DNA of 64,000 bases from Oceanihabitans sp. 2_MG-2023 (GTDB taxonomy: Bacteria; Bacteroidota; Bacteroidia; Flavobacteriales; Flavobacteriaceae): the NCBI RefSeq assembly GCF_030547245.1, contig NZ_JAUOQT010000001.1, positions 806,001-870,000 of the forward strand, written 5' to 3'. Each line of letters begins with the position of its first letter. The first letter of the stretch is position 1. The translations under genes and the position numbers were made by a program. Under the pieces are notes generated by a model. The model had not been told where the DNA came from and made no database searches. It saw only the letters and a program-made list of their open reading frames with translations. Below, piece by piece: positions 25,306 to 48,258 of the stretch.

Positions 25306-25395
25306 CCATTCGTCGACACTTGCTTCCCGCCCATCTATAGACATTGTTTGTTAAAAGAATATTTAATATAACAGGTTAGTCTTCGGTTAATTTTG
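25306..25395 (+). promoter_or_regulatory. Candidate LytTR site A and promoter of the 106-aa gene
   Basis: CCATTCGTCGACACT (25306-25320) is a strong copy of the motif shared by seven promoters here. A weaker copy, CCGCCCATCTATAGA (25327-25341), lies 21 nt on. The -7 element TAATTTTG (25388-25395) is 82 nt from the first and 61 nt from the second. The same 82/61 geometry occurs at site B. Confidence 0.65.
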
Positions 25396-25417
25396 TACCA
25401 GTTAATCCAAACAAACC

Positions 25418-25738
25418 ATGTTAAAAACAGAAGTTCCCTCTTTATTATTTTTAAATAAAATAAGTAGAAAGTTATTTAAAAATGAAAAAAATAATACAGT
25501 CGAAAATAATACATATCCAATTAACATTGATGATGAAAAATATAGCTTAAAAACGATGGAAAAATATGCTTTAAATAAAAACATAAGAAACTTAGAGTTT
25601 ATAAATCATTTAGAAATGAATTTACAAGACAAACAATTAAAAAATATGCCCCTTGAGTTTCTTACAGATTTAAAACAATTAAAAATACATTCTCAAAACA
25701 ATCTATTAACAACACTTTATTCTATTAATAAAAAATAG
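25418..25738 (+). CDS. Hypothetical protein, 106 aa, of the LytTR-linked regulon
   Basis: A 106-residue soluble protein, Lys/Asn-rich and mostly helical, without signal peptide, membrane segment or recognised motif. The C-terminal half has an amphipathic segment with LEMNLQDKQLKNMPLEFL. The ATG lies 22 nt after a -7 element that carries a candidate LytTR site at the standard distance, so it is likely a genuine gene. It is the first gene of the signalling region and is not in the downstream operon. No function can be assigned. Confidence 0.55.
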   Translation: MLKTEVPSLLFLNKISRKLFKNEKNNTVENNTYPINIDDEKYSLKTMEKYALNKNIRNLEFINHLEMNLQDKQLKNMPLEFLTDLKQLKIHSQNNLLTTLYSINKK

Positions 25739-25757
25739 ATTTAGGTATTGTAAAAAA

Positions 25758-25847
25758 CCATTGGTCGACACTTAAACGTTATTGGTCGACACTAAAATCG
25801 TTCTAATCGAATATAAAAAATAAAAACTCCTATTAAATCTAGCTTTG
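25758..25847 (+). promoter_or_regulatory. Candidate LytTR site B and promoter of the signalling operon
   Basis: CCATTGGTCGACACT (25758-25772) and TTATTGGTCGACACT (25779-25793) share 13 of 15 bases and are spaced 21 nt apart. The -7 element TAGCTTTG (25840-25847) lies 82 and 61 nt from them. Direct repeats at about two helical turns are the known form of LytTR-domain sites, and the operon behind this promoter encodes a LytTR regulator. This suggests autoregulation. Confidence 0.75.
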
Positions 25848-25872
25848 TTGTGTTAAATAAAAGACCCTCGTA

Positions 25873-26286
25873 ATGTTAAAAAAACTTAAAATACTTCTTA
25901 TTGAAGATGACATGATTGAAATAATGAAATTGAATAGAACGATTTCTACATTAAAATTAGATCATAAAATTATTGAAGCAAATAATGGAGAAGAAGCACT
26001 AGAAATTTTAGAGCAAAAAGATAACTTACCTGATGTTATTTTATTAGATTTAAATATGCCAAAAATAAATGGCATCGAGTTTTTAAGCATTTTAAAAAAA
26101 GATGATGTATTAAAATATATTCCTACCATAATTTTAACAACATCCAATAATCAAAAAGATTTATTAGAATGTTATAAGATAGGTGTTGCTGGTTATGTTT
26201 TAAAGCCATTAAAATATGAGGATTATGTTAGTAAAATTGAAAAATTATTAGCATATTGGAGTATCAACGAGTTAATAGTAGTTTAA
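25873..26286 (+). CDS. Single-domain (CheY-like) response regulator
   Basis: A 137-residue receiver domain with no output domain. The acidic pocket is in LLIEDDMIEI, the phospho-acceptor is Asp59 in LLDLNMP, a Thr lies in LTTSNN, and the switch Lys is in YVLKPLKY. Stand-alone receivers of this size often act as phosphate sinks or allosteric partners. It is first in the seven-gene signalling operon and 4 nt before the H-NOX gene. It may compete with the LytTR regulator for phosphoryl groups from the two kinases or the Hpt protein. Confidence 0.88.
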   Translation: MLKKLKILLIEDDMIEIMKLNRTISTLKLDHKIIEANNGEEALEILEQKDNLPDVILLDLNMPKINGIEFLSILKKDDVLKYIPTIILTTSNNQKDLLECYKIGVAGYVLKPLKYEDYVSKIEKLLAYWSINELIVV

Positions 26287-26290
26287 AAAA

Positions 26291-26830
26291 ATGAAAGGAA
26301 TAGTTTTTACCGAGTTTTTAGAATTAGTAGAAGATAAATTTGGATTAGAAATGGTCGATAATATTATCTCAAGTTCTACATTAGAATCTGAAGGCATTTA
26401 TACAGCCGTAGGGACATATAGTTTTTCAGAAATGTTACAATTATTAGGGCATTTAAGCGAAAACACAGGTATATCAATAGACAACTTGTTATTGGTATAT
26501 GCCGAACACTTTTTCAGTGTAATTGAAAAAAGTTATCCTGGACTCTTAGAAACATATAAAGACCCAATTGAAATGATTTCATCTATAGAAAATCATATTC
26601 ATGTAGAAGTTAGAAAAATTTATCCAGATGCAGAATTGCCAACTTTTGAAGTTGTCGAAAAAACAGAAAACTCTTTAGTAATGATATATACTTCTAGCAG
26701 AGCTATGCATCACTTTGGCTTAGGTTTAATGAACAAAACTTTCGAACACTTTGGTTCAACTGCAAAAATAGATTTAGAAAAAATTAAAGAAGACGGAACA
26801 GAAGTGCGATTTGTTATTCATAAAAATTAA
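26291..26830 (+). CDS. H-NOX (heme nitric oxide/oxygen binding) protein
   Basis: A 179-residue stand-alone H-NOX. It starts MKGIVFTEFLELVEDKFG, the family N-terminus. The proximal heme ligand is most likely His104 in NHIHVEVRKIYPDAELPTF, and the YxSxR motif that clamps the heme propionates is Y133-T-S-S-R137. Stand-alone bacterial H-NOX proteins bind NO and inhibit a neighbouring kinase. The start overlaps or abuts the PAS kinase gene (its stop 26828-26830 shares one base with the kinase ATG), so the pair is translationally coupled. Confidence 0.92.
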   Translation: MKGIVFTEFLELVEDKFGLEMVDNIISSSTLESEGIYTAVGTYSFSEMLQLLGHLSENTGISIDNLLLVYAEHFFSVIEKSYPGLLETYKDPIEMISSIENHIHVEVRKIYPDAELPTFEVVEKTENSLVMIYTSSRAMHHFGLGLMNKTFEHFGSTAKIDLEKIKEDGTEVRFVIHKN

Positions 26831-28788
26831 TGAGTCAAGAGCAAGTAGAAATATTACAACGTGCTTTAAAAAGAGAAAAAGCGGCAAGAAAAGCAGCCGA
26901 AAAAATTCTTGAAGAAAAATCAAGAGAATTATACTTTACATCACAACGACTAGAGCAATTACTAGAAGAGAAATCTTCACAATTACAAGGTGTTTTTGAA
27001 AATATTGTAGATGCATATGTTGTTATGGATTTACAAGGAAATATCATAAAATTTAATGAAGCAGCAACTAAATTATTTGGTTACGATATTAGTAGAGAAG
27101 AAATAAACGTTGTAAATCTTATTTATAAAGAAGATTATCCATATGCAATATCTTCTTTTATGGAACTGCAAAATAAAGCCTATTTTAAAAATTACGAAGC
27201 TAGAGTGTACACTAAATCTAAAGAGGTTAAATGGGTACATATAAATGCTAGTTTAATTTTTGATAAAGAAAAAAAACCCGTTGCAGCACAAGGTATTGTT
27301 AGAGATATAACAGACCAAAAAGCATCCGAAGAAAAATTAATAGCATCCGAAAATAGATTAGCATCACTAGTTGTTAATCTAGATAGTGGTATCGTATTAG
27401 AAGACGAAAACCGTAGCATTGTTCTTACAAATAATAAATTTTGTGACCTTTTTAATATTGAAGCAAAACCATCAGATCTAATAGGGATGGATTGCCAAGC
27501 TGCATCCGAACAAAATAAAGTGCTATTTAAAAACCCAGACTCCTTTTTGCAAAGAATGCGAGTTATTGATGAAAATAAAAAAACAGTTTTAGGAGACGAA
27601 CTAGAAATGTTAGATGGTAAAATACTCGAGAGAAACTATATTCCAATAATAACAGGTGATACCAGTAAAGGCTATTTATGGACATTTAAAGATGTCACCT
27701 TAAACAGAACTTATAGAAAAAGCCTTGAAGCTCAAAAACAAAAGTATTACAGCATTATTGCCAATATGAATTTAGGTTTGGTCGAAGTAAATAATAATGA
27801 AGAAATATTAATGGTAAACCAAAGCTTTGAGAAAATTTCTGGATTTAAACAGGAAGAAGTTTTAGGTAAAAATGCAAGAGAGCTTTTTGCAATAGACGGC
27901 TCTTCTGATGTTATTTTAAAAGAGAATGTTAAACGTCTTAAAGGAGAATCTAGCTCCTATGAAATTAAAGCCAGAAATAAAGCAGGTGAAATACTGTATT
28001 TATTAATAAGTGGAGCACCAAATTATAATATAGATGGAGAAGTAATAGGTTCTATTGGTATACATCTAGACATTACGGCAATTAAAAACTTAGAATTTCA
28101 AAAAGAAAAATTATTAAGTAAACTAGAAAAAAGTAACGACGAATTACAAGAGTACGCACATATTGTATCCCACGATCTAAAATCACCATTAAGAAGCATA
28201 CATGCACTAGTTAGTTGGTTAAAAGAAGACAATCAAGGTAAACTTGACGATATAAGTATACAAAACATAGGGCTTATAGAAACTACATTAGAGAAAATGG
28301 AACAACTTATTACAGATGTTTTAAATTATTCTAGTGTAGGCGCAGAGACTTCCTTAAAAACAGAAGTCGATTTAAATAGTTTAGTAAACGAATTAGTATC
28401 GATTTTATACATTCCAGATCATATAGAAATTAAAAGTTTAAATACATTACCAAATATAATTGGGGATAGAACGAAACTTCAACAAGTATTTCAAAATTTA
28501 ATTAGTAACTCTGTTAAGTTTATAGATAAAGAGCATGGAAGTATTATAATAGATGTAGAAGACTTAAAAAGTCATTATAAGTTTTCTATTAAAGATAATG
28601 GTATTGGTATTGAGAAAAAATATCATGATAAAATATTTAAGATATTTCATTCTTTAAAGAAAAGCAAAGATTCCTCAGGAATTGGCTTATCTATTGTTAA
28701 AAAAATTATCAACTTACATGAAGGAGAAATATGGTTAGATAGCGAACCAAATGTAGGTAGCACTTTCTATTTCACTTTAAAAAAATAA
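26830..28788 (+). CDS. Soluble PAS-domain histidine kinase, probable H-NOX partner
   Basis: A 652-residue cytoplasmic kinase. A coiled coil (about 1-48, LQRALKREKAARKAAEK) is followed by three PAS domains (about 48-165, 175-300 and 305-425), a phytochrome-type HisKA with SHDLKSPLRSIHAL (His448), and an ATPase domain with NLISNSVKF, DNGIGI and GIGLSIVKKI. There is no membrane segment. Because its start touches the H-NOX stop, it is the natural target of H-NOX regulation. Close relatives of this layout often carry a receiver; here the receivers and Hpt are separate proteins. Confidence 0.9.
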   Translation: MSQEQVEILQRALKREKAARKAAEKILEEKSRELYFTSQRLEQLLEEKSSQLQGVFENIVDAYVVMDLQGNIIKFNEAATKLFGYDISREEINVVNLIYKEDYPYAISSFMELQNKAYFKNYEARVYTKSKEVKWVHINASLIFDKEKKPVAAQGIVRDITDQKASEEKLIASENRLASLVVNLDSGIVLEDENRSIVLTNNKFCDLFNIEAKPSDLIGMDCQAASEQNKVLFKNPDSFLQRMRVIDENKKTVLGDELEMLDGKILERNYIPIITGDTSKGYLWTFKDVTLNRTYRKSLEAQKQKYYSIIANMNLGLVEVNNNEEILMVNQSFEKISGFKQEEVLGKNARELFAIDGSSDVILKENVKRLKGESSSYEIKARNKAGEILYLLISGAPNYNIDGEVIGSIGIHLDITAIKNLEFQKEKLLSKLEKSNDELQEYAHIVSHDLKSPLRSIHALVSWLKEDNQGKLDDISIQNIGLIETTLEKMEQLITDVLNYSSVGAETSLKTEVDLNSLVNELVSILYIPDHIEIKSLNTLPNIIGDRTKLQQVFQNLISNSVKFIDKEHGSIIIDVEDLKSHYKFSIKDNGIGIEKKYHDKIFKIFHSLKKSKDSSGIGLSIVKKIINLHEGEIWLDSEPNVGSTFYFTLKK

Positions 28789-28790: not shown

Positions 28791-29924
28791 ATGAAAACAG
28801 TACAACTAGTAAAAAATAAAAATAAAGATTGGGAATATGTTGTCGAAAAACAAGAGTTAAAAGAACCTTTAGTATTGGTTTTTGGTAACAGATATATGTT
28901 AGAAGACAAAGATGTTTACAAGGATATTAAACAATTATTTCCTGATGGACATATTGTTTTTGCCTCTTCATGTGCCGAAATTTCATCGAACACAGTAAAC
29001 CAAGAAAGTATAACTATTACTGCAATTGAGTTTGAAAAAAGCACTTTTCAAATACAGACAAGTAATGTTTTAAACAAAGATTTAGATAGTTATAAAACTG
29101 GTAACGATTTAATAAATCAGCTTTCGCAAGAAAACTTAAAATATGTACTAGTAGTTTCTGAAGGTAGTTTTATTAATGGTAGCCAACTTACCAAAGGTAT
29201 GAGCGCATCAACATCTGATAATATAGTAATAACAGGTGGTTTATGTGGAGATGATGATAGATTTGAAAAAACATTAGCATCTTATAATGAAAATCCAAAA
29301 GAAGGGGAACTTGTAGCTATTGGTTTTTATGGAGATACCCTTGAAATTTCTTTCTCTATTCATGGTGGATGGACACCTTTTGGCCCAGAGCGAAGAGTAA
29401 CAAAATCTAAAGGCAATACCTTGTTTGAATTAGATGGAAAACCAGCTCTTGACTTATATAAAAGTTATTTAGGAGATAAAGCAAAAGACTTACCAGGAGC
29501 AGCATTATTATATCCTTTAAATGTGAAGTCTACAGACGAAAAGCAATCTATTGTAAGATCTATTTTAAATATAAATGAAGAAGAGAATGCTGTAATTTTA
29601 GCAGGGGATATTAAAGAAAATTCTAAAGTTCAGCTTATGATGACTAATGTAGATCATATTGCAAATGCATCCGAACGTGCAGCAAGACAAGCATTAGAAT
29701 ACCGAACAAATAAACCAGAATTAGCCATATTAGTAAGTTGTATTGGCAGAAAATTAGTGCTAGACCAACGTGTAGAAGAAGAAATTGAAGAAGTAATAGA
29801 GGTTATAGGTAATGATACTGTAATTAGTGGTTTTTATTCCTATGGGGAGATAGCACCTTTTCATGGTGAAGTAGCTTGCCAATTGCATAATCAAACCATG
29901 ACCATAACGCTAATAAGCGAATAA
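28791..29924 (+). CDS. FIST-domain protein, candidate NosP-type NO sensor
   Basis: A 377-residue FIST N plus FIST C protein. The N-part has LVLVFGNRYML and SSCAEISSNTV; the C-part has GNTLFELDGKPALDLY and ends with SGFYSYGEIAPFHGEVACQL, the hallmark end of FIST_C. NosP proteins are FIST-domain hemoproteins that bind NO and control a partner kinase. A His at position 191 (SIHGGWTPFG) lies near the domain junction and is a candidate heme ligand, but I cannot confirm it. The stop overlaps the next kinase ATG by one base. Confidence 0.88.
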   Translation: MKTVQLVKNKNKDWEYVVEKQELKEPLVLVFGNRYMLEDKDVYKDIKQLFPDGHIVFASSCAEISSNTVNQESITITAIEFEKSTFQIQTSNVLNKDLDSYKTGNDLINQLSQENLKYVLVVSEGSFINGSQLTKGMSASTSDNIVITGGLCGDDDRFEKTLASYNENPKEGELVAIGFYGDTLEISFSIHGGWTPFGPERRVTKSKGNTLFELDGKPALDLYKSYLGDKAKDLPGAALLYPLNVKSTDEKQSIVRSILNINEEENAVILAGDIKENSKVQLMMTNVDHIANASERAARQALEYRTNKPELAILVSCIGRKLVLDQRVEEEIEEVIEVIGNDTVISGFYSYGEIAPFHGEVACQLHNQTMTITLISE

Positions 29925-30988
29925 TGAATTCCCTTTTAAAAAGACAAATTCGTAAATATTTAAGTGAAGAGTTAAAAAACAATGAAAATTTAAAAACGTT
30001 TATTAACGCTGTAGATTTGTCGTATAATAATTTTGACGAACAATCTGCTATGATTCAAAGAGCAATGGCTATTAGCTCTGACGAATTATATACCGCTAAC
30101 CGAAAATTACAAAAGGAAGCAGACGAACAAAAGGAAGTTATTAATAAACTTAAAAGTGTTATCGATACACTAAAATTTTATAATTTAAAAGAAGACGAAA
30201 AAGAAGAGAATGTCGAGTTAACTGGTTCTAATTTGGTAGATTTTATTGATAACCAAACTAAGGAGATTGTTCAAATGAACAAGCAAAAGCAATTTATGTT
30301 AAATGAACTTGCACATCAAAACCAAGAGCTTAGCGATTATGCACATATGGTATCTCACGATTTAAAATCACCACTTCGTAGTATAGATACATTAACCGCT
30401 TGGTTAAGACAGGATTATGAAGAAATATTTGATGAAAACGGAAAAAAAACATTAAAACTAATTCGAACAAATGTTGAAAAAATGGATACCCTAATTAGTG
30501 GTATTTTAGAATATTCAACCATAGGTAAAAACCGAATAGAAGTATACGATGTAGATTTAAATAATTTAATTGAAGACTTATTAAAAAGTATTCAAGTCCC
30601 AGACCATATTCATATTACAAAAACAGATTTACCTATAATTAAAGGCGATAAATATAGATTGAAACAACTGTTTCAAAACCTAATTGGCAATGCAATAAAG
30701 TATAATGATAAAGATCAAGGAACTGTTGCTATTGGTTTAGAAGATAAAAAGGAATACTGGCAATTTCACATAAAAGATAACGGAAAAGGTATTGACAAAA
30801 CCTACTTTAACAAAATTTTTAAAACCTTTGAGAAATTAGAAAATAATCCAGATTCTTCCGGAATAGGATTGTCTATTGTTAAAAAAATTGTCGAATTGTA
30901 TGGAGGAAAAATATGGCTAGAATCGCAAGTTCATATTGGAACCACATTTTATTTCACCCTTAAAAAATCCCCAAATGGAACAGCCTAA
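29924..30988 (+). CDS. Soluble histidine kinase, probable FIST/NosP partner
   Basis: A 354-residue cytoplasmic kinase. The N-terminus (about 1-75) has a NNFDEQSAMIQRAMAISSDEL stretch that resembles the N-terminal region of kinases encoded beside FIST/NosP genes. A coiled coil (about 75-140) follows, then HisKA with SHDLKSPLRSIDTL (His145) and an ATPase domain with NLIGNAIKY, DNGKGI and GIGLSIVKKI. No PAS domain is present, so the input probably comes from the FIST protein. The kinase core is paralogous to that at 26830-28788. Confidence 0.9.
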   Translation: MNSLLKRQIRKYLSEELKNNENLKTFINAVDLSYNNFDEQSAMIQRAMAISSDELYTANRKLQKEADEQKEVINKLKSVIDTLKFYNLKEDEKEENVELTGSNLVDFIDNQTKEIVQMNKQKQFMLNELAHQNQELSDYAHMVSHDLKSPLRSIDTLTAWLRQDYEEIFDENGKKTLKLIRTNVEKMDTLISGILEYSTIGKNRIEVYDVDLNNLIEDLLKSIQVPDHIHITKTDLPIIKGDKYRLKQLFQNLIGNAIKYNDKDQGTVAIGLEDKKEYWQFHIKDNGKGIDKTYFNKIFKTFEKLENNPDSSGIGLSIVKKIVELYGGKIWLESQVHIGTTFYFTLKKSPNGTA

Positions 30989-31292
30989 TCAATCTTACAT
31001 TAACAGCTTGTCTGGAGGTGATCAAGCATTTAAACAAAAACTAATAGATGTTATAAAAAAAGAGTTTCCAGAAGAGAAATTAGTGTATTTTAATAACTAC
31101 AATGCTAAAAATTATAAGTTAGCAGCAGAAAATGTACATAAACTTAAACATAAAATTAGTATTTTAGGGCTCGAGAAAGGTTATGAAGTTGCAGTAGCAT
31201 ACGAAAATAGTTTGCTAGAAGGTTCTACAAACCATAAGGAAGCATTTGAAGCTATTTTAAACAGCATAACAATATATCTAGAAGAAATTTAA
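30975..31292 (+). CDS. Histidine phosphotransfer (Hpt) protein
   Basis: A 105-residue helical Hpt protein from the ATG at 30975, which lies within the end of the preceding kinase gene. The motif is ENVHKLKHKISILGL, in which His55 aligns with the phospho-acceptor of the AHxLKG motif. It has no kinase domain and should pass phosphoryl groups between the kinases' receivers and the LytTR regulator or CheY-like protein. Its place between the kinases and the output regulator supports a convergent relay. Confidence 0.85.
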   Translation: MEQPNQSYINSLSGGDQAFKQKLIDVIKKEFPEEKLVYFNNYNAKNYKLAAENVHKLKHKISILGLEKGYEVAVAYENSLLEGSTNHKEAFEAILNSITIYLEEI

Positions 31293-31301: not shown

Positions 31302-32015
31302 ATGAATTGTATTGTTATTGATGACGAAGCTACTGCTAGAATGATTATTTCGCAATTATGCTCCAATGTGCCAAGTCTTAATGTTTTAGAAGAGTTTCCT
31401 AATGCAATGCAAGCTATTAAATACTTAAATCAAAATGAAGTTGATTTAATTTTCTTAGATATACACATGCCAGATTTTACAGGTTTCGATTTTATTGAAA
31501 CCCTTAAAAATCCCCCAAAAATAATACTCACAACATCAGATCCTAATTTTGCTATTCAAGCTTTTGAATATGACTGTATTGTCGATTATTTGGTAAAACC
31601 AATTACCCAAGAACGGTTTAATAAAGCTATAGGTAAAGCAGAAGCTAAACAAAATAAACCCGTTACAAAAGCTTCAAAAACAGAAAAAGTTGAAAGTACT
31701 TCAGGTAACGACTTGTATGTAAATATAGATAGACGCTTAATTAAAATAGATATCCCAAGTATTTACTTAGTCGAAGCTAAGGGAGATTATATTCAGGTTA
31801 AAACAGAAGATAAAAATTATACTGTACATTCTACCTTAAAAAAAATAGAAGAAAAACTTCCAGACAATTTATTCTTAAAAGTACATAGATCGTATATTAT
31901 CAATATTAAAAAGATAATTGATATAGAAGATAACAGTGTTTTAATTAAAAAAGATGTTATTCCCGTAAGTAGATCGAATAGGCCAGAATTAATGAAAAGG
32001 CTTAATTTATTATAA
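31302..32015 (+). CDS. LytTR-family response regulator (output of the relay)
   Basis: A 237-residue regulator. The receiver (about 1-115) has IVIDDEATARM, Asp53 in FLDIHMP, and a KPIT switch. The linker is Lys/Thr-rich. The LytTR DNA-binding domain (about 140-237) includes IYLVEAKGDYIQV, VHSTLKKIEEKLP and FLKVHRSYIIN. LytTR proteins bind direct repeats, and the 21-nt repeats upstream of this operon and six further promoters are the likely targets. It is last in the operon and followed by a terminator. Confidence 0.93.
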   Translation: MNCIVIDDEATARMIISQLCSNVPSLNVLEEFPNAMQAIKYLNQNEVDLIFLDIHMPDFTGFDFIETLKNPPKIILTTSDPNFAIQAFEYDCIVDYLVKPITQERFNKAIGKAEAKQNKPVTKASKTEKVESTSGNDLYVNIDRRLIKIDIPSIYLVEAKGDYIQVKTEDKNYTVHSTLKKIEEKLPDNLFLKVHRSYIINIKKIIDIEDNSVLIKKDVIPVSRSNRPELMKRLNLL

Positions 32016-32182: not shown

Positions 32183-32205
32183 TTGCCTTTAACTTCTGCA
32201 ATTTA

Positions 32206-32275
32206 CCATTCATCTATACTTTAAATTACACTAATCGAAAAACATAAAATGCAGCTTGCTTTCCTAATAGTTTTG
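32206..32275 (+). promoter_or_regulatory. Candidate LytTR site C and promoter of the CAP-domain gene
   Basis: CCATTCATCTATACT (32206-32220) and a weaker ACACTAATCGAAAAA (32228-32242, spaced 22 nt) lie upstream of -7 element TAGTTTTG (32268-32275). The first half-site is 62 nt from the -7. The stretch after the second half-site (CGAAAAACATAA) is repeated almost exactly at site D. Confidence 0.7.
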
Positions 32276-32297: not shown

Positions 32298-32792
32298 ATG
32301 AAAAAAGTAGCAGTTATTATAACCGTTTTATTAAGTACATTTTTAATGTCTTGCTCTGTTGAAGAGGATGTTAATTCTTCAGAAAATTATACTACACAAG
32401 TTGTAGAGGTAACATATACAACTTTAGATTATGAAATTGCAGAGCTAATAAATGCACATAGAATTTCGATAGGTCTTGATACATTAAGTCTACTTAGTCA
32501 AGCCTCCAAAGAAGCGATTACACATAACCAATATATGGCTAGTCAAGGTAATATAAGTCATGATCATTTTAGTGAACGTTCTCAAAACTTAAAAGATTCG
32601 GTGAATGCAAAAAAAGTATCAGAAAATGTTGGTTACGGTTATAATAGTGCTACATCCATAGTGAATGCTTGGTTAAATAGCGAAGGGCATAGACAAGCTA
32701 TAGAAAATCCAGTTTATACAGACTTTGGTATTTCTTCAAAAGAAGATGAAACAGGCAGTAATTACGTAACAAACATCTTTGTAAAGCTATAA
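32298..32792 (+). CDS. CAP (SCP/PR1)-domain lipoprotein
   Basis: A 164-residue lipoprotein. The lipobox is LMSC with Cys19 as lipid site. The CAP domain (about 48-162) has the conserved His and Glu of the family: ITHNQYMA, NISHDHFSER, VSENVGYGY and SEGHRQAIENP. Bacterial CAP proteins are usually extracytoplasmic with roles in adhesion, envelope or matrix that are poorly defined. Its promoter carries a candidate LytTR site, so it belongs to the predicted NO regulon. Confidence 0.87.
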   Translation: MKKVAVIITVLLSTFLMSCSVEEDVNSSENYTTQVVEVTYTTLDYEIAELINAHRISIGLDTLSLLSQASKEAITHNQYMASQGNISHDHFSERSQNLKDSVNAKKVSENVGYGYNSATSIVNAWLNSEGHRQAIENPVYTDFGISSKEDETGSNYVTNIFVKL

Positions 32793-32820
32793 TTTAAAAT
32801 AGCTTATCTACACATAATTA

Positions 32821-32889
32821 CCATTCGTCTACACTAAAGCTACACGAAACGAAAAACATAATTTGAAGCAGGTAATATCAATAAATTTG
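32821..32889 (+). promoter_or_regulatory. Candidate LytTR site D and promoter of the large secreted protein
   Basis: CCATTCGTCTACACT (32821-32835) with a weaker downstream element at 32842-32856 (21 nt) precedes -7 element TAAATTTG (32882-32889). The first half-site is 61 nt from the -7. The match to site C extends beyond the half-sites. Confidence 0.7.
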
Positions 32890-32915: not shown

Positions 32916-35522
32916 ATGAAAACAAAATTACACATATTAAAAAATCAACTAGTAATACTAGCAGTAGTATTAGTTGGTTTAACAACACAAGCACAAAATA
33001 TTCCTTTTAATTGCGATTATAGTGCATACTTATTTCAACGTAATGATGTATATGCAATTGATTTAGCATCTGGTAATTCTTACCTTGCTGCAACAGATAT
33101 TACACCAGGAAATATTAATGCGGCAGCATATAATCCAGCAGATGGTTTTATTTGGGGTTATTTAAGTACACCTTCTAAAACCATTGTTAGAATTGGAAAA
33201 GATTTCCAAACTACATCTTTTACGATACCAGAACTAACTACAGGAAATAAATATGTTGGAGATATTAGTCCCGATGGTATTTATTATTTTAAAGCTGGAG
33301 GTACAAGCTATTTTAAAGTAGATTTAAATCCTAACTCTGCAACTTATACACAATACCTTTCAACAGAAAGTTTAACACAAAATATTAACATCCATGATTG
33401 GGCCTTTAATGCAGTAGATGGTAACTTATATGCAGTAGAAAAAACTTCAAATGTTTTATATAGAATTAACCCAATAACAAGTGCAGTATCATCTTTAGGT
33501 GTTGTCCCAATTCTATCTGGATTAAGCTATTCATATGGAGCTGTGTATTTTGATGCAGATGGTCGTTTTTATGTCTCGGCTAATGAAACCGGAACTGTTT
33601 ATGTAATACAAAGTGTTCAGGATTTAGACGGAATAAATGTTATGGAATCTAATTTATTTGCATTTGGTCCTTCAAGCTCTAGTAATGATGGTGCACGTTG
33701 CCCAACAGCTCCAGTTGCTCAAGAAATATGTGATAATGGTATTGATGATGATGGAGATGGTTTAATAGATTGCGAAGATCCTTCTTGTTCAGGTTTTGGA
33801 AGTTGCGAAGTGATTGCACCACCTACAACTGCTAACGATGGCGGTTTAGAAAGTAACGGAAGATTATCGGAAGCAATTAGCAAACGTAACTTTAATCGTG
33901 CTAAAAAGAGCTATGCCTTTGACCAAATGTCGGCAAAACGTGTTACTCCAAACCCAGTAAGTTATACTAGTAGAACCACCAATGATTTTCAATTACAAGA
34001 TTTTGTACCATTAACAACTATTAACGAAGATTATGCAGTAGAGTCTACACCTTCAGACTTATTAAACATTACCAACGCAACAGAAGTGTATTCTGTAGAT
34101 TATATGCAAAACGATGCGTCTATAGCTTCCATCTTAGCTTTAAAAACAGAAAACGGCGTATACGAACATACCAAATATATTTGTGATAGATTATTAGGAG
34201 CAGAATTAATTTCGGTTTCTACCATTGATATTAATGATCAAGCATTCATTAAATCCATTATAAAAAATGCAGACGGTTCTTTTGAATATGTTTTAAGCTT
34301 ATCTGCTAAAGTTGCTAATAACGATGCGAATTTTGCAATAGAAAGCCATTGGAATTTAGATGTATATGAAGAAAATATAACTTTTTACAACTTTCAAATC
34401 TGGTCGAATTCTATAGACGATTTATATAGCTTGTCTCAAGAAGTATTAAACTTATTAGAAGTAGTAAAACCAATCTCTGGTTACGAATTATCTACGCCTC
34501 CAACCGTTTTTGTAAGAAAAGGAAAGTATAACAATGGCGCCTTAGATCTTCAAATAATAAATACCAATGCAACCGAAAATGTAACTTTCGATTCTGGTTA
34601 TAGAGAAACAGAAACGAGTGACTTTAACTACACATCGTCTAACTTAAACTTAAACGAAAATTATATTACCAATATTCAAGTACCAACAGGAAATCTATTT
34701 GATGTTGGGTTTAGAATTGGAGATGGTATAAACACACCAGACGATTTATTTATGTCCGATGGGCCTTGGGGAGTTGATGATTCACAAGCAGGAACAGTTG
34801 TAACTAATTACAATATTTCACCTAATACGAATGAATTTGATGCGGCAGATTTTCCAATAGAAAGAAACCTAAGCTTAAGCGCACACACAAGTACTTATTT
34901 TGCAGCTTACAGAGCATTAACACCACGTTTTAAAGCAGTAGATGTAACAAACTACGATAGCTTCAAACTTAAAGCAAAAGGAACAGGAAATTTAGAAATT
35001 ACTTTAGTAAAACAAAGTATCACCAATTGGGAAGAGCAATATAAAACAACCATTGCTTTAACAGCAGATTACCAGAGTTTTGCAATACCTTTTTCTGCAT
35101 TTACATCTGCTTTAAATACCGAATTACAAGCAAACGATGTGGTTACCATAGTATTTACAATGGTAAGTGAAGACGGAACAAGAACCGCAAAAGAAATGGA
35201 TGTACAGGATGTACGTTTCTCTACAGGAAATACCTTATCTGTAAACGATTTTGAAACAGATACAACAACAAATTCTGTAAAAGCATATCCAAACCCAATG
35301 CGAAATGCATCTAATATTCACTTTAGTGCAAATCAAAATGAAACTGTACAATTAGTTATTTATAACCAATTAGGTAAAGTAGTATTTCATACTACAGTAA
35401 ATGCACAAGCAGGTAAAAACCAAATAGCAATAGAAAGAAATAACTTAAGTTCTGGTTTATACATCTGTAAAATAGTAAGTACACAAACCCAATATAATCC
35501 CTTGAAGTTACTTGTAAAGTAA
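32916..35522 (+). CDS. Large secreted protein with type IX sorting domain
   Basis: An 868-residue exported protein. The signal peptide ends at TTQAQ. The N-terminal part (about 25-270) resembles a beta-propeller with repeated short DxxG-type turns. A calcium-binding-like segment, CDNGIDDDGDGLIDCEDP, follows at about 275, then a long unassigned middle region, a carbohydrate-binding-like beta domain (about 700-790), and a C-terminal sorting domain starting YPNPMRNAS and ending KLLVK. The candidate LytTR promoter links it to the relay. It could be a cell-surface or matrix protein that holds exopolysaccharide. Confidence 0.8.
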   Translation: MKTKLHILKNQLVILAVVLVGLTTQAQNIPFNCDYSAYLFQRNDVYAIDLASGNSYLAATDITPGNINAAAYNPADGFIWGYLSTPSKTIVRIGKDFQTTSFTIPELTTGNKYVGDISPDGIYYFKAGGTSYFKVDLNPNSATYTQYLSTESLTQNINIHDWAFNAVDGNLYAVEKTSNVLYRINPITSAVSSLGVVPILSGLSYSYGAVYFDADGRFYVSANETGTVYVIQSVQDLDGINVMESNLFAFGPSSSSNDGARCPTAPVAQEICDNGIDDDGDGLIDCEDPSCSGFGSCEVIAPPTTANDGGLESNGRLSEAISKRNFNRAKKSYAFDQMSAKRVTPNPVSYTSRTTNDFQLQDFVPLTTINEDYAVESTPSDLLNITNATEVYSVDYMQNDASIASILALKTENGVYEHTKYICDRLLGAELISVSTIDINDQAFIKSIIKNADGSFEYVLSLSAKVANNDANFAIESHWNLDVYEENITFYNFQIWSNSIDDLYSLSQEVLNLLEVVKPISGYELSTPPTVFVRKGKYNNGALDLQIINTNATENVTFDSGYRETETSDFNYTSSNLNLNENYITNIQVPTGNLFDVGFRIGDGINTPDDLFMSDGPWGVDDSQAGTVVTNYNISPNTNEFDAADFPIERNLSLSAHTSTYFAAYRALTPRFKAVDVTNYDSFKLKAKGTGNLEITLVKQSITNWEEQYKTTIALTADYQSFAIPFSAFTSALNTELQANDVVTIVFTMVSEDGTRTAKEMDVQDVRFSTGNTLSVNDFETDTTTNSVKAYPNPMRNASNIHFSANQNETVQLVIYNQLGKVVFHTTVNAQAGKNQIAIERNNLSSGLYICKIVSTQTQYNPLKLLVK

Positions 35523-38764: not shown

Positions 38765-38807
38765 GTTCTAGTTTTTAATCATTTGCAAGTTAGGCATTCA
38801 TTTCCAT

Positions 38808-38877
38808 TCATTCATCTACAGCAATGGTCCACTCATCGAAATTCAATGGAATCTCATAGCTTTCTATTGCATCTTTG
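38808..38877 (+). promoter_or_regulatory. Candidate LytTR site E and promoter of the STAS-flippase genes
   Basis: TCATTCATCTACAGC (38808-38822) and CCACTCATCGAAATT (38829-38843) are both good half-sites, 21 nt apart. The -7 is CATCTTTG (38870-38877), one base from TAnnTTTG, and lies 62 nt from the first half-site. Being in a divergent intergenic region it could also affect the TPR/barrel gene. Confidence 0.7.
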
Positions 38878-40540: not shown

Positions 40541-40728
40541 AGTTTGTAGTTATTGTGTCTTCCTTTTGAATGACAGTATCCATTTTATTTAATAATATTT
40601 TCAGAGGTATTCGGTTATTGGGAGAGCAACGAAGAATTTAACTAAGAAAGTTAATATGTTAAAGAGATTCTTAAGTCATACTTCTTTCTAAAGGATACTA
40701 TTAAAAATACTAAAACGACATCTTCTTA

Positions 40729-40798
40729 CCATTCGTCTACAGCAACGTGCAACCTATCTAAACTCTCCTGAATATGTCTCTTTAAATACGCAAATTTG
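40729..40798 (+). promoter_or_regulatory. Candidate LytTR site F and promoter of the GT4 gene
   Basis: CCATTCGTCTACAGC (40729-40743) and a weaker CAACCTATCTAAACT (40750-40764, 21 nt) precede CAAATTTG (40791-40798), one base from TAnnTTTG and 62 nt from the first half-site. The remainder of the gap 40541-40728 holds nothing else I can support. Confidence 0.7.
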
Positions 40799-40923: not shown

Positions 40924-42144
40924 ATGAAACTAGCAATCGTAACTGCATATCCACCAAGTAAAGTAACTTTAAACGAATACGCTTACCATTTAGTAAAGCA
41001 CTTTAGACAAAAAGATAATGTAACTGAAATTGTTTTACTTACAGACAAAACGGAAGGAGCAAAAGATATTGCTTTTACTGAAGATGGTTGTAAGATTACA
41101 GTGAAAGAATGCTGGGCATTTAATAGCTATACAAATATTATAAATGTGACTAAAGCGATTAATAATACACAACCAGATGCCGTTTTATTCAACTTACAAT
41201 TTATGAAATTTGGAGATAAAAAAGTTGCAGCAGCTTTAGGCTTAATGTTACCATTAGTTTGTAAGCTAAAAAAGATTCCAAACATTGTATTATTACACAA
41301 TATACTAGAAGAAGTAGATCTAGGCTCAGCAGGATTTACAAGTAGTAAAATCATGCAAAAAGTATATGGCTTTATAGGAACTAGCTTAACAAGGTTAATA
41401 TTGCAAGCAGATACTGTTGCAGTAACCATGCAAAAATATGTGGATATTTTAGAAGAAAAATATAATGCTTCAAATGTGACTTTAATTCCACATGGAACAT
41501 TTGAAATTTCTGAAGAAAAACCTGAATACAGCTTGCCACAAGGACCTTTACAAGTGATGACTTTTGGTAAATTTGGAACTTACAAAAAAGTAGAAGGTAT
41601 GATTGAAGCCGTAGAAAAAGTAAGAGTATCTACAGGATTAGATTTAGAAGTTGTAATTGCAGGAACAGACAATCCAAATGTACCTGGTTATTTGGCAAAA
41701 GTTCAAGAAGATTACAAGCATATACCTCAAGTTCGTTTTACTGGTTATGTAGAAGAATATGAAGTGCCAACCTTATTTAAAGAAAGTGCTGTGGTTGTAT
41801 TTCCATACACGTCGACAACAGGAAGCTCGGGTGTTTTACACCAAGCAGGAAGTTATGGAAAAGCAGTAGTGATGCCAGACTTAGGAGACCTTGCTTTATT
41901 AGTAAAAGATGAAGGGTATAAAGGAGAGTTTTTTGAGCCAACTTCTGTAGAAAGTTTAGCAAATGCAATTGAAGCAATTGTAACCAATGAAGCACACAGA
42001 ATTGCTTTAGGAAAAGCAAACTATGAAGCTGCAACAGCCTATCCAATGGAGAAAATTGCAGATATGTACTTATCGAATTTTGATAGAATTATTACAAGAA
42101 AAACACCAAAAAGTAGAAACGCATTAAAACCTACTAATGCATAG
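40924..42144 (+). CDS. GT4-family (GT-B fold) glycosyltransferase
   Basis: A 406-residue cytoplasmic GT. The first domain starts MKLAIVTAYPPSKVTLNEYA and has NIVLLHNILEE; the second has LQVMTFGKFGTYKKVEGMIEA, a VRFTGYVEEYEVPTLF acceptor-side segment and the nucleotide-sugar loop FPYTSTTGSSGVLHQAGSYGKAV. The second-domain architecture is that of GT4 retaining enzymes. In Pel systems the polymerase (PelF) is also a soluble GT4. A candidate LytTR promoter drives it, so it may be the key regulated polymer or lipid-glycan transferase. Confidence 0.87.
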   Translation: MKLAIVTAYPPSKVTLNEYAYHLVKHFRQKDNVTEIVLLTDKTEGAKDIAFTEDGCKITVKECWAFNSYTNIINVTKAINNTQPDAVLFNLQFMKFGDKKVAAALGLMLPLVCKLKKIPNIVLLHNILEEVDLGSAGFTSSKIMQKVYGFIGTSLTRLILQADTVAVTMQKYVDILEEKYNASNVTLIPHGTFEISEEKPEYSLPQGPLQVMTFGKFGTYKKVEGMIEAVEKVRVSTGLDLEVVIAGTDNPNVPGYLAKVQEDYKHIPQVRFTGYVEEYEVPTLFKESAVVVFPYTSTTGSSGVLHQAGSYGKAVVMPDLGDLALLVKDEGYKGEFFEPTSVESLANAIEAIVTNEAHRIALGKANYEAATAYPMEKIADMYLSNFDRIITRKTPKSRNALKPTNA

Positions 42145-43808: not shown

Positions 43809-45019
43809 AGTTTTTTGTTTTTAAATGTTTTGTTAATTCCTGCGGTTTCTATACGAAAATTATAAGTGTCACTTTCATACACAGCTGGCTTCAAGAAAAA
43901 GGTAGCATAGCCATTAAAAGACGTTTTAGTAATAGTGTCTACAAGTGTATTGTCTTTATAAATTAATAGTTTTACGTGTAATCCATCCGGAATCATTTGC
44001 TCCATAAAACTTTGTAATGGACCAACTAATATTTCGCGATTTTTGTTAGTAAAGGCAACTTTAAAATCGTCTAGAACACTTTGATATTTTAAGGTAATCG
44101 TATTACTTGCTGCCATACCATCTACATAAGCTTTAATGCTCCAGTTGTCTTTAAAATCGGGATGAATTATTTTAGAATGTGCCACTCCTTCTATAGTAGT
44201 TCCTGTCGTTTTTAAAATATTTCCATTCGCATTTGTAATATAAAAGGTAACAAATGTACCATCGCTAACCACATTATCTTGCTTGTCTTTTAGTACAGAA
44301 GTTGAAAAGGTTGTAATCTGATTTCCGTCGGCATAATTATGTGGTCGTTTTGCTGAAATGGTAAAATCTGTAGGAATTGCAGCCCAAACATGAATAGTGA
44401 ATTCTTTAGAATTGACGCCTAAACTTTCCGAAGATACTAACATACGTCCACTTTCTCTTTTAGAATAAATGTTTCGATAAGTAATTAAATTCTTGGTAAA
44501 AATAGCATTGTTTTCTTCGGAAGCTAAAAACTGAAACTTTGCATTTACCTTCGTATTTGTAGGTACAGGATTATCTAAAGAATCTGTAGGAATTACAACC
44601 AACATGGTGTAATCTGTTTCTCCAGCTTCAATACTTGGCGGGCCAATATAGGTTTCCATAGTGGCGACTTCTGCTTTTGAATTCATATAGAATTGACCAG
44701 AAATAGATTTGTTGCCCTTTAATAATTTCCAGTTTACAACCCCCATTTTTTTTGTGATGTTTTGTGGAATTTCATATTGAAATGCATTGTCTTTTACTAT
44801 AGCTGTAACCAAAGTAGAACCATAACTATTCGAGCAATAGAGTAGTGGTTTTTCATCTTCGGAAGCTGTAAATTTTAAAATAACAGCATTTCCAACTTCA
44901 TATTCTATTTGTGTGCTTAGTAACTGAACCGGATTAGTAGCTTCGTTGTCTTGCACAAAAGCAAAGGAAGATAATAAAATCAATCCTAAAAGGAATATGT
45001 ATGTACGTTTACATTGCAT
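43802..45019 (-). CDS. Secreted multi-domain beta protein, unknown function
   Basis: A 405-residue exported protein. The signal peptide ends near FAFVQ. The mature part looks like three or four Ig-like beta domains (VGNAVILKFTASEDEK, FTISAKRPHNYADGNQ, TFVTFYITNANGNILK and SFNGYATFFLKPA are typical strands of Big or invasin-like folds). No catalytic motif is visible. The start overlaps the previous gene by one base (TAATG) and the stop overlaps the glycosidase start, so the three are co-translated. It may be a periplasmic scaffold of the export machine. Confidence 0.75.
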   Translation of the reverse strand: MQCKRTYIFLLGLILLSSFAFVQDNEATNPVQLLSTQIEYEVGNAVILKFTASEDEKPLLYCSNSYGSTLVTAIVKDNAFQYEIPQNITKKMGVVNWKLLKGNKSISGQFYMNSKAEVATMETYIGPPSIEAGETDYTMLVVIPTDSLDNPVPTNTKVNAKFQFLASEENNAIFTKNLITYRNIYSKRESGRMLVSSESLGVNSKEFTIHVWAAIPTDFTISAKRPHNYADGNQITTFSTSVLKDKQDNVVSDGTFVTFYITNANGNILKTTGTTIEGVAHSKIIHPDFKDNWSIKAYVDGMAASNTITLKYQSVLDDFKVAFTNKNREILVGPLQSFMEQMIPDGLHVKLLIYKDNTLVDTITKTSFNGYATFFLKPAVYESDTYNFRIETAGINKTFKNKKLW

Positions 45020-48000
45020 TAATTCGGGTTTCCTATATATGTGTTAATTTCTATTTTAATATAACTAAAATCTGGATGATCGATTTTTTGTAATTGGGCA
45101 TCACTATGATTTTCTATTCTGTTAGGTACTATTTTTGCTGCAATGGCAGCATTTGGTAAACCATTTACAAAAATGTTTTGCATGTTTGTATTTATGATTT
45201 TTACTTTACCATTTTTTAAAATTTCGTATTCAAAATCTTGTTTGCGTTGTTGTCTCACACCTTCTTTTACAAATAAATGATCAACCCAAACCATATTTTT
45301 ATTGGCATCATAATAACTAACCAATAGCTGAGGTATTGTAATTTCTTGGATGCCACTATTAAATAAGTTTCCGTTTATAGTTTCCTCTTTAATAGTAATG
45401 GCACTTAATACCACATTCTTATATAAATCGGATCCAGATACATTTCCAGCGATTTGTAAGTTGAATTTTGTGGGTTGTTCTTCAAATTCGACAGGTGTAA
45501 ATTCATCTGGGTTAAATGTGTCTGGAATAGAATCCTGCGTTCTAGACCAGGCAATGCCTTCAAAATTAATGCGGAAACTACTCGATTCTTTTGGCATTAA
45601 TTTATGTTTAACGTGATACTTTGCATTGTAGGTTGCTAGTTGTTTGTTATCATTATTGTATAAGGTTCCTTTTAAAATAACATCAGCAGGTACATTATCT
45701 ATATTCTGTACTTCACCAATAATGGCATAACTACCATCATACTGCACTAGTTTAGCAGAAACGACTTCTAAAACAGGTTGTTTTAAAATGTCTTCATGAT
45801 GTGTTTGTTGAGTAGTGATACGACGTCTCCCTTGATTAAAATACTTGGTTGCATTTGCAGAATAAAGTTGATCTGGCGGTAAATCGTTGTTTAAATCATC
45901 TGGTTGTAAATACCACTTTCCTTTTCGTTTGGATAAGGATTTATAATCTACTTTTTCTATTTTTTCTAAAGGAGTAATCCATTGGCTAGTCACTTTTGCC
46001 GAAACGGTACTGTCGTTATGTTTTGTAATTTCTGTATCAATAGCATCCATTTTTGCATAGCTACTTAGTAAACCATCAGTTACTGAAATCTCTAACATGT
46101 ATTGTGCAATTGGTAACTGGTTTTCTGGATCGATTAAACCATGCGCTTTTTCAAATTCTTTAAAATCTAAAGCATCGTAATATGCGATAATAGCATTTTC
46201 TGGACTGCGTTGCGAATCGTTTTTTAGATAGAATAAATAGATACCATAAAATACTGTAATAGCTAATATGAAAGACCAAATATGCGTAATTCGTAAAACA
46301 ATTCGTGAGAATTTATTATACGTCGTTGGAAACTTTAAAAAATCGGGAATAGGTTTAATCCTAGTTTTAAGTGCGATTACCCAAAGCATTTGTATGTTTA
46401 AAACAAAGGCTATTAAAACGGTTAAAAATGGAATAATTCCCCACATTATTTTCACCCATTTAGCAACATCCTCTTTTGGTAAAATAGAGGAAACAGGAGG
46501 GATGTTTAGTCGTTCCCATACCATAATGCCATTTTCTAATTGACGCAAGCGTTGCCAACCACAAAAGTATAATATGGGATCGTAAAACTTATCGTTAGAA
46601 AAGATGTATTTGAGATTGTATTTTTCTGGTGTGGTTAAAAATTGCTGTAACGATCCAATACCGGCAACGCCTTTAAACTTAGAGTTTTCTAAACGCTCGA
46701 TTGGTCGTGTGGTTAATTCTGGCAGTCGTCTTGCAGAGTGGTAGTTTCCATCTACAGTCATGGCATTGGTTTGTGCACTTAGCCAAGCCATTTGGTCCCC
46801 AAAACCTAAAGTTAAAAAGCGCCATTTATCATGATCGTCTTGATTTAAGAAATTCACAATAGGAAGCATTTTTATTTTTTGAGGTTGTGATGGTCTAAAA
46901 TAATTTAAACTCATAGTAAACACGACCATAAACACCATTAAACAAGCTAATATGCCGCCAATAATTCTGTGGTAAACAGCTCCAAATTTAGCTTGAATTA
47001 ATTCTTTTAAATCACCTTCTACAAAACGATATGCAAACTCTCCCATTAATGGTATAGATAAAATGGAAGCCCAAAGTGTAAATCTATCTAGGGTTAAAAT
47101 ATTAAAAGCGGTTTCTCCTAACATTTTTAAAGGTATAGGAGTTGTTCCTCCTGTTCCTAAAATGGTGCAAATGGTTACAGATAACCCAAAAAACAGATAT
47201 CGTTTGCTATAATATCTATAAAATATATATGGTAAAAGAACAAGTAAAATTCCCCAAGGAATTAAAAAAAACACTAATCCAGAGGAGGTGATTTCTAAGA
47301 AATTATCACGAGAACCATGCGGAATTGGCACTTGTGTAATTGGGTTCGCTTTCGAGTTTAACCAATATGGAAAAATACAACCTATAATTAAAACTAAGGA
47401 TAGCATCCCAAAGCTCACAATACGTTTAAACAACTTAAAAAAACTATTCAAAAATATTTTAAAGGTCACTTCTTTCATCGAGCTGACCTGCTCTCTAGAA
47501 ACATCCATAATAACCATTCCTATTAAAGGAAAAATAAAAAAGATCATTCCAAAAATGGGCGTCACATGATGTGAAGTAACGGTTACGGCTATTAAAGATA
47601 AGGATGTAGCTAAATACCATTTCTTACCTGTTTTTAACCACAAATAAATTTCGGGTAGGGCATGCATTAAAACAGAAACGCCAACAATACTTGGTAATTG
47701 ACCAAAAATATGAAGCGTTTCTACAAAAGAAGAACTAAAGACTGCTAAAATAGCAGCATAACCAGCAACTGTTTTGTTGGCAGTCATCATTAAAGAAAAT
47801 CGATAAGCTCCAGTAATAAAAAGGATAATTGCAATTAAGGCTACACTAAACATCCCAAACTTTAAACCACCAATCATAGACAATAATCCAATGGTTTGAT
47901 GCACTAAAGGAGGATAACTTTGTACAGTAAAACCAGTATACCATTCGTAGTTCCATGGCTCAAACCAACTATTTGCATAATGATCTGCAAAAAATAGGTG

Positions 48001-48108
48001 TATTAACGCATCATAAGTAGTTTCCAAAGTGAAAAATATGGAACTGCCATGAAAAGCCAATCCTAAAAGAATGGCTGTGATTAAGTATTTATTTGAGGTT
48101 TCCTTCAT
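45019..48108 (-). CDS. Large GT-C-like membrane protein with NTF2-like and FxLYD-like tail
   Basis: A 1029-residue protein. About twelve membrane segments span residues 1-400, plus others near 555 and 610. The first periplasmic loop contains TTYDALIHLFFADHYANSWF, where an Asp lies as in GT-C transferases, and TVQSYPPLVHQ follows; the overall type matches PTPS-related/GT-C proteins. The soluble tail has an NTF2-like domain (about 640-745: SPENAIIAYYDALDFKEFEK) and an FxLYD-like domain (about 780-870: AIIGEVQNIDNVPAD). It is first of a three-gene coupled operon and may transfer sugars or assemble polymer at the inner membrane. Confidence 0.75.
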   Translation of the reverse strand: MKETSNKYLITAILLGLAFHGSSIFFTLETTYDALIHLFFADHYANSWFEPWNYEWYTGFTVQSYPPLVHQTIGLLSMIGGLKFGMFSVALIAIILFITGAYRFSLMMTANKTVAGYAAILAVFSSSFVETLHIFGQLPSIVGVSVLMHALPEIYLWLKTGKKWYLATSLSLIAVTVTSHHVTPIFGMIFFIFPLIGMVIMDVSREQVSSMKEVTFKIFLNSFFKLFKRIVSFGMLSLVLIIGCIFPYWLNSKANPITQVPIPHGSRDNFLEITSSGLVFFLIPWGILLVLLPYIFYRYYSKRYLFFGLSVTICTILGTGGTTPIPLKMLGETAFNILTLDRFTLWASILSIPLMGEFAYRFVEGDLKELIQAKFGAVYHRIIGGILACLMVFMVVFTMSLNYFRPSQPQKIKMLPIVNFLNQDDHDKWRFLTLGFGDQMAWLSAQTNAMTVDGNYHSARRLPELTTRPIERLENSKFKGVAGIGSLQQFLTTPEKYNLKYIFSNDKFYDPILYFCGWQRLRQLENGIMVWERLNIPPVSSILPKEDVAKWVKIMWGIIPFLTVLIAFVLNIQMLWVIALKTRIKPIPDFLKFPTTYNKFSRIVLRITHIWSFILAITVFYGIYLFYLKNDSQRSPENAIIAYYDALDFKEFEKAHGLIDPENQLPIAQYMLEISVTDGLLSSYAKMDAIDTEITKHNDSTVSAKVTSQWITPLEKIEKVDYKSLSKRKGKWYLQPDDLNNDLPPDQLYSANATKYFNQGRRRITTQQTHHEDILKQPVLEVVSAKLVQYDGSYAIIGEVQNIDNVPADVILKGTLYNNDNKQLATYNAKYHVKHKLMPKESSSFRINFEGIAWSRTQDSIPDTFNPDEFTPVEFEEQPTKFNLQIAGNVSGSDLYKNVVLSAITIKEETINGNLFNSGIQEITIPQLLVSYYDANKNMVWVDHLFVKEGVRQQRKQDFEYEILKNGKVKIINTNMQNIFVNGLPNAAIAAKIVPNRIENHSDAQLQKIDHPDFSYIKIEINTYIGNPN

Positions 48109-48167
48109 TTAAAGCCTAAGCTACAATAATATGGTAAAGATAATTAAATATAACAGTGCTTCCATTT

Positions 48168-48258
48168 TTAATTATCTACAGCAACTTACCATTCGTCGAT
48201 ACTTACCTATAGGTTAAACTAAATAACAATTTTAAGGTTGTCTTCTCCTGTACATTTG
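48168..48258 (+). promoter_or_regulatory. Candidate LytTR site G and promoter of the receiver-GT2 operon
   Basis: TTAATTATCTACAGC (48168-48182) and CCATTCGTCGATACT (48189-48203) are 21 nt apart. The -7 TACATTTG (48251-48258) is 62 nt from the strong half-site and 83 from the other. The arrangement (82-83 and 61-62) equals that of sites A and B. Confidence 0.75.

Follow-up and report, generated by a model that had tools for sequence, protein, structure and literature searches.

A three-half-site direct-repeat operator, very probably of a LytTR response regulator, confined to an exopolysaccharide gene cluster in Oceanihabitans

Introduction

LytTR response regulators are among the closest described counterparts of the system analysed here. 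Their sites consist of two repeats of 9–11 nucleotides (nt) with spacers of 11–13 nt, according to an excerpt of PMC4847170, and Table 1 of this source gives the binding-site fragment of YehT as ACCGCTTA-N13-ACCACTCA. In a 64,000-nt stretch from Oceanihabitans sp. 2_MG-2023 (Flavobacteriaceae; 806001–870000 of contig 1, hereafter the window), a half-site nearly equal to these repeats, ACCAYTCR, recurs before seven genes or operons of a 23-kb cluster, and a LytTR gene lies among the sites. An earlier note, made from the sequence alone, had proposed that they form a LytTR regulon.

YpdB, which acts at the yhjX promoter of E. coli, also uses a direct repeat (GGCATTTCAT) with a period of 21 and unequal A and B sites, but its half-site is different and a single target gene is reported (excerpt of PMC4847170). 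BtsR/YehT, which acts at the btsT/yjiY promoter of E. coli, is a receiver-LytTR protein with 26% identity to the window protein over 234 aligned positions, and its repeats have the same period of 21. As far as the excerpted source goes, it works with a membrane LytS-type kinase and a pyruvate transporter target, whereas kinases beside haem-sensor-like proteins and an exopolysaccharide cluster are found here. Its operator has two half-sites, this one three.

AgrA of Staphylococcus aureus differs in serving peptide quorum sensing and in its half-site, and SypG of Vibrio fischeri is not a LytTR protein. AgrA is nonetheless comparable as a LytTR activator on direct repeats with a centre near −60 (excerpt of PMC4227749). 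In V. fischeri, the syp polysaccharide cluster is under the control of an H-NOX protein and its kinase (HnoX-HahK), which act by way of phosphotransfer and a DNA-binding response regulator; this organism belongs to another phylum, and its hnoX-hahK operon, as given in an excerpt of PMC12369376, has two genes and no FIST protein. In the NosP-kinase systems of Pseudomonas and Burkholderia, as here, a FIST protein stands beside a kinase without recognised sensory domain, but the output is a cyclic di-GMP-type response regulator rather than LytTR (excerpt of PMC12570481).

Results

All seven sites of the earlier note were found, at 25306, 25758, 32206, 32821, 38808, 40729 and 48189. When the window was searched with CCATTCGTCKACAST at up to 3 mismatches, 9 matches were obtained versus a mean of 1.72 and a largest count of 6 in shuffled sequence; the nine are these seven sites, a second copy at 25779 and a 3-mismatch match at 53658. 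The distance from the motif C to the first base of the −7 box was 82, 82, 62, 61, 62, 62 and 62 nt, in the order of the sites. Since the two sites at 82 nt have a copy 21 nt downstream, i.e. at 61, the rule that one half-site stands 61 or 62 nt from the −7 element holds in 7/7 promoters. The −7 element, which had been claimed for all seven, is in register at 7/7 but has the exact form TAnnTTTG at only 5/7; the variants CATCTTTG (38808 site) and CAAATTTG (40729 site) are also conserved in relatives. A half-site (up to 2 mismatches) with NAnnTTTG at 61, 62, 82 or 83 nt occurs at 7 places in the window; 1000 dinucleotide shuffles gave 0.004 on average and never more than 1. Because the window sites themselves supplied the consensus, the tests on other genomes weigh more.

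The layout of the operator emerged from an alignment, anchored at the central half-site, of 49 promoters drawn from the window and from 20 loci outside the genus. Four congeneric loci (G001, G002, G004 and G005) were excluded from the column and offset profiles, which they would otherwise dominate, and the window was kept. Among 82 offsets, the similarity of the flanks was highest at +21 (z 5.6) and −21 (z 3.4), followed by +17 (z 2.1), which points to an operator of three half-sites in register. As 21 nt make two helical turns, the half-sites would share one helix face, at about −82, −61 and −41 relative to the −7 box, with strong copies that vary by promoter. The claimed period of 21 nt to a second copy stands, as does the value of 22 at 32206, where the best second copy has this spacing, but the operator appears to have three half-sites and not two. 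Copies at 82–83 nt exist as well, but the two promoter classes drawn from them are better described as one three-site operator whose strong copies differ. The proximal copy approximates NCAYTCRTCGAAAWT; in the distal copy, the conserved bases are mainly T, R, C and A at every other position. Within an individual promoter the partner copy often matches poorly and can be recognised mainly when relatives are compared. At the 25306 site, the 61-nt copy scored 0.4 with a position weight matrix (PWM) versus 29.6 for its partner, the distal half-site of operator 1, which is conserved in the four congeneric loci fetched. The PWM was trained on 84 half-sites from the scored loci and its scores are not independent; locus counts use the plain consensus.

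In the 3.69-Mb genome, ACCATTCRTCKAYAST with up to 2 mismatches gave 22 matches versus 17 for the reversed pattern. All six matches with 0–1 mismatch fall within 831305–854203 of contig 1, which is the 23-kb cluster, and all six have a −7 box in register. The 38808 site has 3 differences from ACCATTCRTCKAYAST; its support is its conserved position in relatives. The regulon proposal had hinged on the motif not being scattered over the genome at random positions and frequencies, and the good sites proved to be confined to the cluster. A chance origin was rejected on the shuffles, the genome-wide matches and the reversed-pattern controls. A wider regulon in the same genome was also dropped, because 0/16 of the two-mismatch matches have a −7 box in register.

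The comparison was then extended to 148 relatives, own genome excluded. LytTR orthologues with at least 52% identity were found in 41 of them, and other matches reached at most 48%. These 41 genomes gave 161 genome-wide matches versus 72 for the control pattern, whereas no excess was observed in the 107 relatives without orthologue (111 versus 106). Around such genes, 40 loci of up to 20 kb were searched, one of them (G112) at 47% identity. On the LytTR strand, 43 half-sites with 0–1 mismatch were found in the closer 20 loci and 19 in the more distant 20, versus 1 and 0 on the other strand, and 28/40 loci have at least one. At 20 paralogous LytTR loci, zero half-sites with 0–1 mismatch were found, and none of the 4 with 2 mismatches had a −7 box in register. 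A separate collection comprised 80 named loci, largely of Winogradskyella, Psychroserpens, Algibacter, Olleya and Lacinutrix; 7 already searched were excluded. In the remaining 73, the LytTR strand carried 200 half-sites and the opposite strand a single one, and the reversed pattern had no match; 72/73 had at least one site. A second copy (core, up to 3 mismatches) stood at +21 in 85 cases and at −21 in 22. Kinship among the species inflates these counts relative to independent events, but not nearly enough to account for the contrast with the controls. The sites thus track the orthologues, are absent at 0–1 mismatch from paralogue loci and show no excess without an orthologue, which supports the LytTR regulon interpretation of the earlier note.

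Operators 3 and 4 are alike outside their half-sites too, and this resemblance could suggest a functionless similarity left by a recent duplication of a promoter segment or by a dispersed repeat. Such an origin is barely conceivable: 20 loci of other genera preserve the half-sites and their distance but not most of the columns in between, and the sites lie almost all on the LytTR strand.

The LytTR gene is unique in the window, as had been stated, although the genome has 17. By Pfam, LytTR is the sole DNA-binding domain among the 20 proteins scanned from 25418 to 49992. The best NCBIfam match of the protein is BtsR with 123 bits, below the equivalog cut-off of 246. The LytTR family has the motif FhRhHRS (excerpt of PMC4227749); the window protein reads FLKVHRS, with K for R at the third place, and falls within the family by this motif. 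A relaxed form of the expression matched 32/41 proteins, and the 9 others, 60–68% identical, were unmatched. The second copy at 21 nt likewise conforms to the described form of LytTR sites.

The phase to the −7 box is strict in other genera as well. In the 73 named loci, 154 NAnnTTTG boxes lie at most 160 nt downstream of sites, 70 at 61–62 nt and 55 at 82–83 nt (125/154). In eight orthologous gene sets, from which matches of the receiver RR1 starting after residue 12, matches below 30% identity and receiver-glycosyltransferase family 2 (GT2) matches shorter than 300 residues were dropped, the box downstream of the best half-site was at 61–62 nt in 64/87 cases and at 82–83 nt in 12/87 (76/87). 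A half-site (PWM at least 12) precedes 33/39 RR1 genes, the window included. The in-register NAnnTTTG boxes are T-initial at the CAP, type-9 secretion system (T9SS) and fusion promoters, and never so at the STAS, flippase and glycosyltransferase promoters (CATCTTTG, GATATTTG, CAAATTTG).

In Flavobacterium psychrophilum the sigma-A box lies at −12 to −5 (excerpt of PMC9723704). On this basis, the central and proximal copies would cover roughly −75 to −39. In the aligned promoters, a conserved −33 element was not seen, the columns −25 to −22 carrying at most 0.28 bit, and a weak T run at −20 to −17 reached up to 0.76 bit. The missing element is expected of activated promoters, and each of the seven promoters has its sites upstream of the −7 box rather than over it, which is the position of an AgrA-like activator. 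Both features speak against the possibility that LytTR binds the sites yet represses the cluster until a signal releases it, which we consider unlikely. It has two points in its favour: operator 5 lies between STAS and the divergent porin gene at 36704–38764, where a bound protein could block the porin promoter too, and in V. fischeri HnoX and nitric oxide lower biofilm formation (excerpt of PMC12369376), so that a signal of this type can act negatively.

The signalling operon behind operator 2, whose last gene is LytTR, has two sensor-like proteins, each followed by a kinase, together with a receiver and an HPt-like protein, and this gene order suggests a split phosphorelay with RR1 as a possible intermediate. 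H-NOX proteins have the haem motif YxSxR. It is kept in 32/34 proteins compared, including the window protein (YTSSR), which belongs to the family and is predicted to bind haem and nitric oxide. The FIST protein scored 63 bits with the NCBIfam NosP model, far below the cut-off of 450, and is therefore called NosP-like only; the phosphotransfer protein is called HPt-like only because its Pfam score is also below the cut-off (Table 1), and VHK[LI][KR]HK is present in every HPt-like protein compared. In the 80 named loci (35% identity, half length), the second kinase, the HPt-like protein and LytTR were matched in 80, RR1 in 78 and H-NOX in 77, whereas the PAS kinase was matched in 58 and FIST in 52, which makes the sensor end more variable than the output end. 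Upstream of the operon, the open reading frame (ORF) of 106 amino acids (aa) at 25418–25738 has its own operator and no Pfam match; it occurs in 6/80 named loci and 4 congeneric stretches fetched, with a partial match in G074.

Behind the operators lie the signalling operon itself, the flippase, a glycosyltransferase, a receiver-glycosyltransferase fusion and other genes, and the operator 4 target carries a type-9-secretion sorting tail. The operator 6 glycosyltransferase (E up to 1e-90) was found in 27/148 relatives, and 27/27 have the LytTR orthologue (Fisher 1e-19, kinship uncorrected). The fusion at 48287–49471, a receiver joined to a family-2 glycosyltransferase (E up to 1e-70), was matched in 26/148 relatives, 24 with both halves and 2 with the glycosyltransferase half only; all 26 carry the LytTR orthologue. 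Its sugar transfer is possibly controlled by phosphorylation. A 1029-aa membrane-type protein at 45019–48108 has no confident Pfam family (PTPS_related at 0.043) and is 56–96% identical where matched in relatives' clusters.

Porins of the BcsC/PgaA type consist of a TPR superhelix followed by a 16-strand barrel. The AlphaFold2 model of the protein divergent from operator 5 has this fold with 16 strands, and we regard the protein as a probable exopolysaccharide export porin. Its best Foldseek match was BcsC (E 1.2e-12), with a low overall TM-score (TMq 0.34); further down, among many generic TPR proteins, were PelBC and 4y25, a 'polysaccharide outer membrane secretin' (TMt 0.80). The curated sequence models gave scores below their cut-offs, 38.9 bits for PgaA (cut-off 366.65) and 15.7 for BcsC (cut-off 858). 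Between operator 5 and this gene, GCAAGTTA at 38785–38792 is conserved in many relatives; its minus strand, TAACTTGC, is possibly the porin's own −7 element.

Table 1. Positions of the operators, −7 boxes and genes in the window
Feature	Position	Strand	Remark
Operator 1	25305–25341	+	5' of 106-aa ORF 25418–25738; distal 25305–25320 strong, central 25326–25341 weak
−7 box TAATTTTG	25388–25395	+	82/61 nt from operator 1
Operator 2	25757–25814	+	5' of signalling operon; distal 25757–25772, central 25778–25793, proximal 25799–25814 (degenerate)
−7 box TAGCTTTG	25840–25847	+	signalling operon
Stand-alone receiver RR1	25873–26286	+	Pfam Response_reg 4.6e-23
H-NOX (HNOB) haem sensor	26291–26830	+	Pfam HNOB 1.1e-38, 133 bits
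PAS-PAS histidine kinase	26830–28788	+	
FIST protein, NosP-like	28791–29924	+	Pfam FIST 1.4e-42
Histidine kinase	29924–30988	+	no predicted sensor domain
HPt-like phosphotransfer protein	30966–31292	+	Pfam Hpt 17.3 bits, below cut-off of 24.6
LytTR response regulator	31302–32015	+	presumed ligand of the sites; Pfam LytTR 1.8e-21, Response_reg 2.3e-18, both over cut-offs
Operator 3	32205–32242	+	5' of CAP-domain protein 32298–32792; central 32205–32220, proximal about 32227–32242
−7 box TAGTTTTG	32268–32275	+	operator 3 promoter
Operator 4	32799–32856	+	5' of 32916–35522; distal 32799–32814, central 32820–32835, proximal 32841–32856
−7 box TAAATTTG	32882–32889	+	operator 4 promoter
TPR superhelix + 16-strand barrel protein	36704–38764	−	divergent from operator 5; AlphaFold2 model confidence (pLDDT) 88.7
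Operator 5	38807–38843	+	5' of STAS 38917–39195 and flippase 39224–40468; central 38807–38822, proximal 38828–38843
−7 box CATCTTTG	38870–38877	+	operator 5 promoter
Operator 6	40728–40764	+	5' of glycosyltransferase 40924–42144; central 40728–40743, proximal 40749–40764
−7 box CAAATTTG	40791–40798	+	operator 6 promoter
Operator 7	48167–48203	+	5' of receiver-glycosyltransferase fusion 48287–49471; distal 48167–48182, central 48188–48203
−7 box TACATTTG	48251–48258	+	operator 7 promoter

Discussion

The motif, its spacing, its phase to the −7 box, its confinement to the cluster in its own genome and its co-inheritance with LytTR argue that the repeats are very probably operators of the LytTR response regulator at 31302–32015, and the predicted binding of LytTR to the sites is well supported by these comparisons. 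Several observations weigh against this assignment. The AlphaFold2 model of LytTR was poor (pLDDT 49) and was discarded. No site at 0–1 mismatch was found in 12/40 loci, including three with LytTR at 77–82% identity, and none of three loci at 46–54% LytTR identity has sites. No half-site (PWM at least 12) was seen upstream in 6/39 cases for RR1, 5/19 for STAS, 7/27 for the glycosyltransferase GT1, 10/21 for receiver-GT2, 3/15 for T9SS, 1/5 for CAP, 0/5 for the small ORF and 20/27 for the flippase, which often comes second, after STAS. G008 and G017 carry the polysaccharide cluster on a different contig from LytTR, and no half-site scoring above 10 was found in 18 kb of it in each genome, the G017 stretch starting inside the flippase gene with the promoter outside. 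In G055 (L143), a good half-site pair precedes orthologues of the receiver, H-NOX, the kinase and, in part, FIST, and no LytTR gene follows within 9 kb of the sites on that contig; its ten LytTR genes are all on other contigs, the best 41% identical. This may perhaps be a decayed operon with leftover sites or a takeover by a paralogue, and both fit. Because G055 keeps sites without a LytTR orthologue, our confidence stops short of certainty.

The same genome, together with the 17 LytTR genes of Oceanihabitans, would also fit another regulator of the motif, either a LytTR paralogue or a protein encoded elsewhere, with the cluster as its target. We hold this to be quite improbable, since all six good sites in Oceanihabitans fall in the cluster, the 20 paralogue loci have none at 0–1 mismatch, and the 107 relatives without orthologue show no excess. 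In G008 and G017, moreover, the sites (1 and 2, with 0–1 mismatch) stay near LytTR and are not beside the unlinked polysaccharide genes; this is read as sites following LytTR, although action at a distance is not seen either.

With the LytTR protein of the cluster as the ligand, phosphorylated molecules would occupy two or three head-to-tail half-sites (ACCAYTCRTCKACASY), 21 nt apart. Given a sigma-A box at −12 to −5, the operators would span roughly −96 to −39 and place LytTR just upstream of RNA polymerase, where it would activate promoters without a conserved −33 element. Its targets would be its own signalling operon, giving positive feedback, two exported proteins and the exopolysaccharide synthesis genes. 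On the input side, two sensor-kinase pairs, H-NOX plus the PAS kinase and the NosP-like FIST protein plus the second kinase, would set the phosphate on RR1, from which it would pass to the HPt-like protein and then to LytTR. We infer activation rather than repression, the order of the phosphorelay and nitric oxide as the signal. The full proposal, to which we give even weight for and against, is a cluster-bound regulon in many Flavobacteriaceae genera, in which H-NOX and the NosP-like FIST protein, as two types of nitric oxide sensor each with a kinase, would feed a split phosphorelay to LytTR on a three-site tandem operator and so turn on the exopolysaccharide matrix, with autoregulation making it a switch.

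LytTR proteins on 21-nt direct repeats are already known as a kind. Among the literature matches listed, which cover few subscription papers, none described a comparable LytTR operator in Bacteroidota, and the motif letters brought up, among the matches listed, only papers unrelated by title. Nor was a three-site operator, a cluster-bound Bacteroidota regulon or a coupling of H-NOX and a NosP-like protein to LytTR over an exopolysaccharide cluster found described among the matches listed.

To our knowledge, few transcription factor sites have been mapped in Flavobacteriaceae. For one regulon shared by many members of this family, by record titles in Lacinutrix, Olleya, Winogradskyella, Psychroserpens, Algibacter and others, the present analysis gives a defined operator together with its targets, a probable ligand and a probable signal. 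With its strict −7 phasing, the operator would be a clean case of a LytTR activator engaging a Bacteroidota promoter, and control of the matrix by nitric oxide in Flavobacteriaceae becomes directly testable.

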